NCBI RefSeq assembly: GCF_000225505.1
Contig: NZ_BACI01000048.1
Location: 62,001 to 126,000 of the forward strand
DNA length: 64,000 nt
DNA from: Gordonia alkanivorans NBRC 16433
GTDB lineage: Bacteria; Actinomycetota; Actinomycetes; Mycobacteriales; Mycobacteriaceae
Direction of reading: 5' to 3'
Part shown: piece by piece, positions 42,797 through 45,021 of the stretch
Numbering within the stretch: position 1 is the first letter of the stretch
Layout: each line of letters opens with the position of its first letter
Translations under genes and position numbers: made by a program
Notes under the pieces: generated by a model
What the model was told of the DNA's origin: nothing
The model's input: the letters and a program-made list of their open reading frames with translations, nothing else
Database searches by the model: none

Positions 42797-43118
42797 CGTC
42801 TCGAGTCCTCCCGTCGAAGCCCTCTGATCGAGTGAAACCCGCCGGGCCCGGGAAAGGAAGGGTCTTCGGTGGTGTGTAGAGGGTCGATGTGCCGACCGCG
42901 ACTGGGTAATAGGGCCCAAGACGCATTCGTCGGTGTTCCGGAATGACCGATTTTTCCATCATCAGTCGTTCGACTCACACTTTTCCGTAATTCCAGCTAT
43001 GGTGATCGTGCGCTTCGTTAACGGCATCGAAGGGGGTGCTCGGGGCGTAGGGGGTCAACACCGGGGTGGGCAGATTCCACGCCGGAGCATTTGTGGTCTA
43101 CGTGTGTGGAGGGCTCAG
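42797..43118. promoter_or_regulatory. 322-bp divergent intergenic region
   Basis: No gene is supported here; the open frame from 42933 is only an extension of the 43119 gene. AGGGCCCAAGACGC (42911-42924), read on the minus strand, resembles the right half of a DosR-type site, about 115 bases before the DUF4389 start. GAAGGGTCTTCGG near 42857 is a second weak resemblance. The part 42940-43010 is AT-richer (TTTTTCCATCATCAG) and may hold promoters for both directions. Confidence 0.35.
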
Positions 43119-43856
43119 TTGACCAGTACTCTCTCGGCGCGCGCGTCTAAGCGCAGCACCAGAAAATTTCTCGAACCATCGGCCATCGCCGAAGCCGTCG
43201 CCATCGAGCAACACATCGTGTTGCCCGGATATCAGGCGCTGACCCACTATTCGTCGACCTTCGGGCTGACCGAACATCTGGTCCGGGAGATCGACGAGGC
43301 GGTGCGACGCCATCAGGCGATCGTCGCCCAACTTCGGCGGATGCATGCGGATGCGCTTGCCGCGGAAACCATTTCGTCCGCACATCAAGAGGCGATGGCT
43401 GCGCTGGGGCTCCTCGAGCCCAGCCGGGCCGAGGCCGTCGGCGTCACCCCGCCGCGGCCGGTGCAGGTGTGCCACATCATCCAGTCATATCCGGGTCGCC
43501 TCGGGGATCCCGCCTCGCGGGCGATCGTCTCGCTGGCCTTCCTGGTCGTCGCGGTGCATGCCCTGACCGATCCGACGAACTGCGGAACCGCCTCCCCCGC
43601 ACTCAATCTGGTGCCGCCACCGCTGCACCGCGACCGTGCGCTGCTCGAGAAGGTGCTCGTCCACGCGGTGGCCGCGCTCGACGAGCCGTCGATCGCGGAA
43701 CTGACCGGGTTCATCGCCGAGGCCAGTGCGTCGTTCGCCGGCTGGTCGACCGAGACGCAGCGCGGCTTGTCGGTGCTGCGCTACAACCCGCATTCGCTGC
43801 GCTCGTCGTGCCGAGGCGTGGGACTCGGCGAGATCGACGTCCGTATCGCTGTCTGA
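43119..43856 (+). CDS. hypothetical protein (unknown family)
   Basis: 245 aa if translation begins at the TTG at 43119, which has GGAGGG five bases upstream; a GTG at 43104 is possible. I do not recognise the family. Basic start (ARASKRSTRK), then helical LEPSAIAEAVAIEQHIVLPGYQALTHYSSTFGLTEHLVREIDEAVRRHQAIVAQLRRMHADAL, a hydrophobic SLAFLVVAVHALT and several Cys (VCHII, NCGT, SSCRG). The helix-rich, His-containing pattern (EQH, THY, REI) might bind a metal, but that is speculation. It stands alone 40 bp before dinB2. Confidence 0.65.
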   Translation: MTSTLSARASKRSTRKFLEPSAIAEAVAIEQHIVLPGYQALTHYSSTFGLTEHLVREIDEAVRRHQAIVAQLRRMHADALAAETISSAHQEAMAALGLLEPSRAEAVGVTPPRPVQVCHIIQSYPGRLGDPASRAIVSLAFLVVAVHALTDPTNCGTASPALNLVPPPLHRDRALLEKVLVHAVAALDEPSIAELTGFIAEASASFAGWSTETQRGLSVLRYNPHSLRSSCRGVGLGEIDVRIAV

Positions 43857-43896: not shown

Positions 43897-45021
43897 GTGA
43901 CCACGTCGGTTTCGCAACGCTACCGGTGGCTGTTGCACGTCGACCTCGACCAGTTCCAGGTCTCGGTCGAACGACTGCGCAGTCCGGAGCTCGTCGGTGT
44001 CCCGGTCATCGTCGGCGGCAACGGCGACCCGACCGAGGCCCGCAAGGTCGTGACCTGCGCGTCGTATGAAGCGCGGGACGTCGGCGTGCGGGCCGGGATG
44101 CCGCTGCGTGCTGCCTACAAGAAGTTGCCTGATGCGGTGTACCTCCCGCTGGACATGGGGGCGTACGACGCCGCATCGGCCGACGTCATGGACGTGCTGC
44201 GCGGAACCGGCCACCCCGTCGAGGTGTGGGGCTGGGACGAGGCGTACCTCGGCGTCGGCGTGCGGGGCGCCGAGGTCGAGGAGTTCGACGACGCCGGCAT
44301 CGTCGACTTCGCCGAACGGGTCCGGCACGAGATCCTCGACCGGTGCGGCTTGACGAGCTGCGTCGGCATCAGCGACAACAAGCAGCGCGCCAAGATGGCC
44401 ACCGGTTTCGCCAAGCGGCCGCCCGGCGCCACACCCGACGACGGCGTGGGTGCGCCGCGCGTGTTCCTGCTCGACGACCGCAACTGGCTGGACCTGATGG
44501 GGGAGAGGCCGACTCGCGACCTGTGGAGCGTGGGACCGAAGACGTCGGCCAAACTCGCCGCCACCGGCGTCGAGACCGTCAACGACCTGATCGCCGCACC
44601 TCGCGACGATCTGATCGCCACCTTCGGTCCGCACCAGGGCAACTGGCTGTACGTCCTGTGCCGCGGCGGCGGGGATTCGACGATCACCGCCGAACCGTGG
44701 CTCGCCCGGTCGCACTCCAAGTCTCGGACCTTCGCCACCGACATCGCGGACCCGTCCGAGATGCGTACCGCGGCCGCCGAACTCTTGCGTGAGCTGCTCG
44801 ATCAGGTGATCGCCGAGGAACGCCTACCGTTCCGCGTCGCGGTGACCGTCCGGACCACGACCTTCTACACGCGCACCAAGTCCCGGAAACTCCCTGCGCC
44901 GAGTCTCGACTTCGACCAGCTCGAAGCGGTGGTCGCCGACCTGCTCACCAAGTTCGACATCGATCACCCGGTCCGTCTCCTCGGCGTGCGCCTCGACCTG
45001 GTGACCGACGAGGAGAACTGA
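43897..45021 (+). CDS. dinB2: Y-family DNA polymerase, DinB2-type
   Basis: 374 aa from a GTG at 43897. The palm motif is LHVDLDQFQVSVERLR, followed by ARKVVTCASYEARDVGVRAGMPL. The second catalytic cluster is WGWDEAYLGV, and then SCVGISDNKQRAKMATGFAKRP. The thumb is LWSVGPKTSAKLAATGVETVNDL and the little-finger domain ends VTVRTTTFYTRTKSRKL ... VRLLGVRLDLV. These match mycobacterial DinB2 rather than DinB1. The steric-gate position, aromatic in most Y-family enzymes and Leu in mycobacterial DinB2, is Gln21 here. No beta-clamp-binding tail is seen at the C-terminus. Confidence 0.9.
   Translation: MTTSVSQRYRWLLHVDLDQFQVSVERLRSPELVGVPVIVGGNGDPTEARKVVTCASYEARDVGVRAGMPLRAAYKKLPDAVYLPLDMGAYDAASADVMDVLRGTGHPVEVWGWDEAYLGVGVRGAEVEEFDDAGIVDFAERVRHEILDRCGLTSCVGISDNKQRAKMATGFAKRPPGATPDDGVGAPRVFLLDDRNWLDLMGERPTRDLWSVGPKTSAKLAATGVETVNDLIAAPRDDLIATFGPHQGNWLYVLCRGGGDSTITAEPWLARSHSKSRTFATDIADPSEMRTAAAELLRELLDQVIAEERLPFRVAVTVRTTTFYTRTKSRKLPAPSLDFDQLEAVVADLLTKFDIDHPVRLLGVRLDLVTDEEN

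Follow-up and report, generated by a model that had tools for sequence, protein, structure and literature searches.

A glutamine at the steric gate of the DinB2-type polymerase of Gordonia alkanivorans is a widespread variant with plausibly relaxed sugar selection

The window analyzed here, a stretch of 64,000 nucleotides from Gordonia alkanivorans NBRC 16433 (contig NZ_BACI01000048.1, positions 62,001 to 126,000 of the forward strand), carries an open reading frame (ORF) encoding a Y-family DNA polymerase of the DinB2/DinP type, in which the steric-gate position, filled in most relatives by a bulky residue that shuts out ribonucleotides, is occupied by a glutamine (Table 1). The product reaches 511.4 bits with the family model NF002883 (DinB2/DinP-type DNA polymerase IV; curated cutoff 330), which bears out the DinB2-type membership given in the original prediction, and the nine other models listed score below their own cutoffs. 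The Pfam domains PF00817, PF21999 and PF11799 are present above cutoff, and the top relatives in the PDB are the Mycobacterium smegmatis DinB2 entries 6juo and 4dez (phmmer, E ~1e-114). An AlphaFold2 model built from 36 sequences (mean predicted local distance difference test score, pLDDT, 88.4) superimposes on the chains of the M. smegmatis enzyme, MsDpo4, with Z scores of 37.6–37.7 and 54–55% identity; model residue 8 corresponds to chain residue 1 and the alignment covers chain residues 1–347, the residue correspondence being known from the first and last aligned residues only. In both phylogenetic trees the protein groups with DinB2 and apart from DinB1 and DinB3, with the caution for the first tree that long outgroup branches may be misplaced. 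The DinB1-type C-terminal extension, which in DinB1 carries the clamp contact (PMC4176160; this and the other papers given by PMC number are cited for parts of their text), is absent as judged by length only, the alignment to M. smegmatis DinB2 reaching query residue 372 of 374. Among the best 80 of 413 relatives the closest named one is the protein of Gordonia namibiensis with 96% protein identity; the G. amicalis enzyme (L006) is 94% identical. For the catalytic acids, a metal-binding role was described for D8 of E. coli DinB (PMC4176160), and the D107A exchange renders M. smegmatis DinB2 polymerase-dead (PMC10159617). As D16, D18, D114 and E115 are invariant in the alignment A1, the Gordonia DinB2 is predicted to be an intact, active polymerase.

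Table 1. Position of the dinB2 gene and of the residues discussed, in window coordinates
Feature	Position	Strand	Basis
DinB2/DinP-type Y-family DNA polymerase gene, 374 aa	43897..45021	+	ORF with GTG start, family profiles, PDB relatives
D16-L17-D18, first metal-binding segment (catalytic)	43942..43950	+	D16 and D18 invariant in the 36-row alignment A1
Gln21 (CAG), steric-gate position	43957..43959	+	aligned to Leu14 of M. smegmatis DinB2; census and tree
Residue 26 (Arg in Gordonia), putative second-shell gate partner	43972..43974	+	mycobacterial comparison, post hoc
Residue 37 (Val in Gordonia), weaker putative second-shell position	44005..44007	+	mycobacterial comparison, post hoc
Cys54, equivalent of the polar-filter position of M. 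smegmatis DinB2	44056..44058	+	VVTCASYEAR; 4dez/6jun comparison
D114-E115, second catalytic acidic pair (WGWDEAY)	44236..44241	+	invariant in A1 (36 rows) and in 137/137 representatives

The steric gate lies five residues past the metal-binding aspartate, as for D8 and F13 in E. coli DinB (PMC4176160). The gate motif of the Gordonia enzyme reads LLHVDLDQFQVSVERL, with Q21 following D16 at exactly this distance. Q21 stands opposite Leu14 of 4dez in a phmmer alignment without a single gap between query residue 10 and the end of the motif, and the same offset is seen where the structural alignment of the model with MsDpo4 begins. The assignment of glutamine to the gate, put forward in the original prediction, is therefore upheld; the gate is non-aromatic and is followed by V22, and another aromatic residue acting as the gate is ruled out by these alignments. 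A sequencing error behind Gln21 is likewise ruled out, since glutamine is kept in all 43 representatives of the Gordonia-containing clade (Gordonia, Williamsia, Jongsikchunia and three rows of another family), which share a mean identity of 63% and in which 75 of the 374 columns are invariant.

The glutamine gate is not a peculiarity of this enzyme. A scan of genome contigs for relatives was performed with six search peptides, one spanning the gate and five not, and the best 80 of 413 hits were kept; all 47 rows from Gordonia, Williamsia and Jongsikchunia (L005-L050, L056) have Gln, and the 33 mycobacterial rows divide into 8 with Gln and 25 with Leu. NF002883 is found above cutoff in 251 of 401 genomes drawn from the family, and 131 of the 401, distributed over 9 of 31 genera, contain the pattern H.D.DQFQ; these 131 were checked by translation in part, and the genome counts by genus were tallied from the listed rows. 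A second match in one genome (G336, locus L280) encodes no relative and is a chance match. In the host genus 50 of 53 genomes match the Gln motif, corresponding to all 50 that possess DinB2, the other three being without any match near the cutoff. For the genus of Mycobacterium sp. GA-0227b (51 genomes, 46 with DinB2) nine of the DinB2-bearing genomes match the Gln motif. The earlier statement that mycobacterial DinB2 has leucine at the gate thus applies to most of these genomes and fails for the nine, and the proposal that the Gordonia enzyme itself represents a further departure has to be given up, because Gln is fixed or common in DinB2 of several genera in separate lineages. Moreover, a Nocardia farcinica record (L285; NF002883, 546 bits) has Gln at the gate and Cys at the polar-filter site, and two further families of the same order carry the Gln gate (L244, L270, L272-L274).

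Outside the order, no Gln-gated relative was detected by the short pattern in 296 genomes drawn from the class. In this draw the pattern occurs in 40 of the 296 genomes at 45 places; 30 of these were examined as loci, and relatives of the query are found at nine, each of them from the host family, while the other 15 comprise the DinB2 places of two genomes (G008, G167) and 13 places encoding no relative. In each of 14 genomes checked a single gene exceeds the NF002883 cutoff, so that a Gln form existing as a paralogue alongside a Leu form was not seen, and the two seem to be versions of the same orthologous gene. Among the matches listed, those in G024, G050 and G067 (one genus), G164 and G882 have one in-frame stop each, TAG in G164 and TGA in the other four; they may be dinB2 copies in decay, or the stops may arise at the edges of the alignments. 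A phage or plasmid origin was rejected: the 47 phage records matching the Gordonia protein all stay below 60% identity (26–35% in the 12 listed), and of the three plasmid records matching at E 1e-40 those from Nocardia (2.7 Mb) and Nonomuraea (11.9 Mb) look chromosomal. Plasmid 5 of Tsukamurella tyrosinosolvens (L287) encodes a DinB2 homologue with Leu at the gate and Thr at the filter.

Next to the gate, the so-called polar filter was considered. Its position was assigned from the Thr in 6jun as compared to the Cys in 4dez, together with PMC10159617 and PMC9130138; the 6jun chain has Tyr at the gate, 4dez has Leu, and the 6jun chain was read as an engineered variant. DinB2 was described as being without a polar filter (PMC10159617). 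A census of both positions reduced 257 matches to 214 unique proteins, a sample in which best-scoring proteins are favoured and low-scoring genera are thin. Of the 196 unique DinB2 rows, 83 have Gln at the gate, 65 Leu, 43 Ile and 5 Val, and none an aromatic residue; the gate/filter pairs are Q/C 83, L/C 59, I/T 41, V/T 5, L/T 5, I/G 2 and L/S 1. The 18 DinB1-like and DinB3-like outgroup rows have F/G (15) or Y/A (3). Accordingly, Cys occupies the filter in 83/83 Gln rows, 59/65 Leu rows and 0/48 Ile/Val rows, and the gate of the 142 unique Cys-filter rows is Gln or Leu only. With its non-aromatic gate and with Cys54 in place of a Thr/Ser polar filter, the Gordonia DinB2 agrees with the leucine-gate clade, from which Gln21 at the gate itself sets it apart.

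The history of the gate was followed on a tree of 137 representatives, which was calculated by a careful method with the gate and filter columns removed and for which the bootstrap had not settled. The distinction between Gln and other residues requires seven changes, at least four of them forced by starred, i.e., supported, branches. Within Mycobacterium there are two separate Gln lineages, a clade of eight (support 100/96) and the single row L114, which sits with six Leu rows in a clade supported by 100/99. A single origin of all Mycobacterium Gln forms was rejected by the approximately unbiased (AU) test (p-AU 1.8e-53), the group tested having been named after the first tree was seen. Both lineages are nested among Leu rows, several inner branches being weakly supported, and the simplest reading of this topology would be a change from Leu to Gln in Mycobacterium, clearest for L114. 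At the level of the codons, Gln is encoded by CAG at 119 and by CAA at 4 loci, and Leu by CTG at 53 of 68 (duplicates included); because CAG and CTG predominate, the two states are usually one base apart. A single base change would turn CTG into a codon for Met, Val, Pro or Arg as well, yet these residues are found in 0 of the 142 unique Cys-filter rows, which suggests a role of the amide as such. In the family f48 both Val/Thr (L252, L255) and Gln/Cys (L272-L274) forms of DinB2 occur; since the tree places the Gln/Cys rows within the Gordonia/Williamsia clade, their acquisition by horizontal transfer is suggested.

The mycobacterial lineages also point to candidate residues around the gate. 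Among 217 columns common to at least 21 of the 22 Leu-gate mycobacterial representatives, L114 departs at nine and the Gln clade at four, and both depart at residues 21, 26 and 37; the chance of the agreement at 26 and 37 is small (hypergeometric p 0.0035, post hoc). Residue 26 is Leu in 21 of the 22 Leu-gate representatives and other residues on both Gln lineages. Residue 37 is changed on both lineages as well, yet it is Val in 49/61 of all Gln representatives and its change is therefore not general.

Relaxed sugar selection in the Gordonia DinB2, as anticipated by the original prediction, is plausible from the sequence comparison, because the gate is non-aromatic, because the filter is Cys as in the M. 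smegmatis DinB2 using ribonucleoside triphosphates (rNTPs), and because none of the 196 relatives has an aromatic gate. On balance, the Gln-gated enzyme is probably open and accepts rNTPs. The flexible Gln21 would not clash with the ribose 2'-hydroxyl group (2'-OH), Cys54 would leave the 3'-OH unpinned, and the enzyme should insert both rNTPs and deoxyribonucleoside triphosphates when it fills short gaps or bypasses lesions, like the Leu-gated DinB2. Glutamine would then be a substitute for Leu that recurs in nature against a Cys-filter background, and its amide probably has a specific role, such as touching the sugar directly or through a water molecule, which tunes the gate rather than closing it. 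For M. smegmatis DinB2 it was shown that the L14A exchange preserves RNA synthesis and L14F squelches it, and mycobacterial DinB1 is opened by F23L (PMC4176160). However, several points weigh against an open gate in the Gordonia enzyme or against its coupling to the filter. The literature searched yielded no biochemical data on Y-family enzymes gated by Gln. The DinB1-like proteins (L002, L129-L142) have Gly at the filter in spite of an aromatic gate; enzymes other than DinB2 thus also do without a Thr/Ser filter, and this position by itself is not enough to mark an enzyme as an rNTP user. The Cys state changes only three times on the tree, so that the link between gate and filter is not independent of descent, and a test of Gln against Cys yields four independent pairs on starred branches, too few to reach significance. 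As the independent changes are few, co-evolution of gate and filter is treated here as an association only.

A further point against an open gate leads to the most serious alternative, which we nevertheless consider rather unlikely: Gln21 might lie along the sugar face and partly restore the discrimination against rNTPs relative to Leu, as in A-family polymerases. In these enzymes Gln or Glu is the typical gate (PMC7862312), and in the Bacillus fragment the 2'-OH is kept out by Glu658, discrimination being lost in the E658A variant (PMC7200780). For this reason Gln could partly close the gate of DinB2, and the term relaxed cannot be regarded as established. The restriction to Gln and Leu in the 142 Cys-filter rows, although Met and Val are one step from CTG, points to a role of the polar group. 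However, the A-family residue acts in another fold and another backbone setting. The volume of the Gln side chain does not exceed that of Leu, which also counts against a closed gate. Moreover, even the very small residue of the L14A variant leaves the gate of M. smegmatis DinB2 open (PMC4176160).

In the opposite direction, the Gln amide might form a hydrogen bond with the 2'-OH, so that rNTPs would be preferred, or embedded more often than by the Leu-gated DinB2; this appears doubtful. It would place a polar side chain at the 2'-OH site, and it is consistent with the occurrence of Gln only together with the Cys filter (83/83), with its repeated gain or loss on the tree and with the alteration of residues 26 and 37 on both Mycobacterium Gln lineages, as well as with multisubunit RNA polymerases, in which a Gln touches the ribose 2'- and 3'-OH (PMC7862312). 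However, the effect of Gln929 in RNA polymerase was complex and also facilitated 2'-deoxy incorporation (PMC7862312), there is no structure with Gln at this position, and Val at residue 37 in most Gln representatives shows that this change is not general. An extended form, for which the odds appear similarly long, would regard the Gln gate and the Cys filter as a selected module making a DNA polymerase favour or regularly embed ribonucleotides, which evolved repeatedly from the Leu form with second-shell changes and is the standing DinB2 state in Gordonia, Williamsia and probably Nocardia. Finally, a near-neutral toggle, in which Leu and Gln are functionally equal and their difference is without effect on sugar choice, would fit the single-nucleotide step from CTG to CAG and the several changes on the tree but is very improbable in view of the invariance of Gln in the 43 Gordonia/Williamsia-clade rows at 63% mean identity (even with 75 columns invariant) and of the lack of Met, Val, Pro and Arg in Cys-filter rows.

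As a summary, the Gln gate is a widespread variant of a known family, present in several separate lineages and undescribed in the literature searched. Leu, Ile and Val gates in Actinobacteria are named in PMC4176160, where term searches for glutamine and for gln gave nothing; in PMC6511836 and PMC12926913 such searches found neither steric gate nor glutamine. That no report of a Gln gate in DinB2 was found refers to a search judged mostly from listings, with subscription papers mostly outside. Work on the steric gate of Y-family polymerases contrasts aromatic with aliphatic residues, and a natural polar gate fixed across genera offers a ready comparison of whether sugar choice is governed by size alone or also by hydrogen bonding. 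Should the Gln enzymes accept rNTPs, a polymerase of this kind is present in many actinobacteria of soil and of hosts; should they exclude rNTPs, Gln is a gate-closing solution undescribed for this family in the literature searched.

Regarding the genomic context, the host genome (5.07 Mb) contains four Y-family matches, i.e., DinB2, the Phe-gated DinB1-like L002, the Tyr-gated DinB3-like L001 and the divergent L004 (795-codon frame), which is possibly ImuB-like, and one copy of RNase HII. Directly upstream of dinB2 lies an ORF at 42933-43853 (+) with no Pfam match; 16 of 80 related loci, all from Gordonia, have a counterpart upstream of dinB2 with 28–92% identity, which makes the ORF a possible conserved neighbour of dinB2. 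The DinB_2 of PMC10693628 is a metalloenzyme superfamily unrelated to DinB2 and similar in name only.

Compared to known systems, the Gordonia enzyme is most similar to M. smegmatis DinB2 (MsDpo4; 4dez, 6jul; PMC4176160), with which it shares the NF002883 family, the fold, an identity of 54–55%, the non-aromatic gate, Cys at the filter, the catalytic acids and the lack of a long C-terminal extension. It differs in having Gln21 instead of the Leu14 gate, and rNTP use, measured for the M. smegmatis enzyme, is predicted for the Gordonia enzyme. The Ile/Val-gated actinobacterial DinB2-like polymerases (PMC4176160) belong to the same family and also have a non-aromatic gate; however, their aliphatic gate is combined with Thr (46) or Gly (2) at the filter in the 48 unique rows, in contrast to Gln and Cys in Gordonia. 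The paralogues L002 and L001 of the same genome are Y-family members too, but they have the aromatic gates Phe and Tyr and fall far outside the DinB2 clade. A-family polymerases of the Pol I type resemble the Gordonia DinB2 in the Gln/Glu-type gate side chain (PMC7862312), but they represent another polymerase family with another fold, and this likeness is therefore an analogy only.
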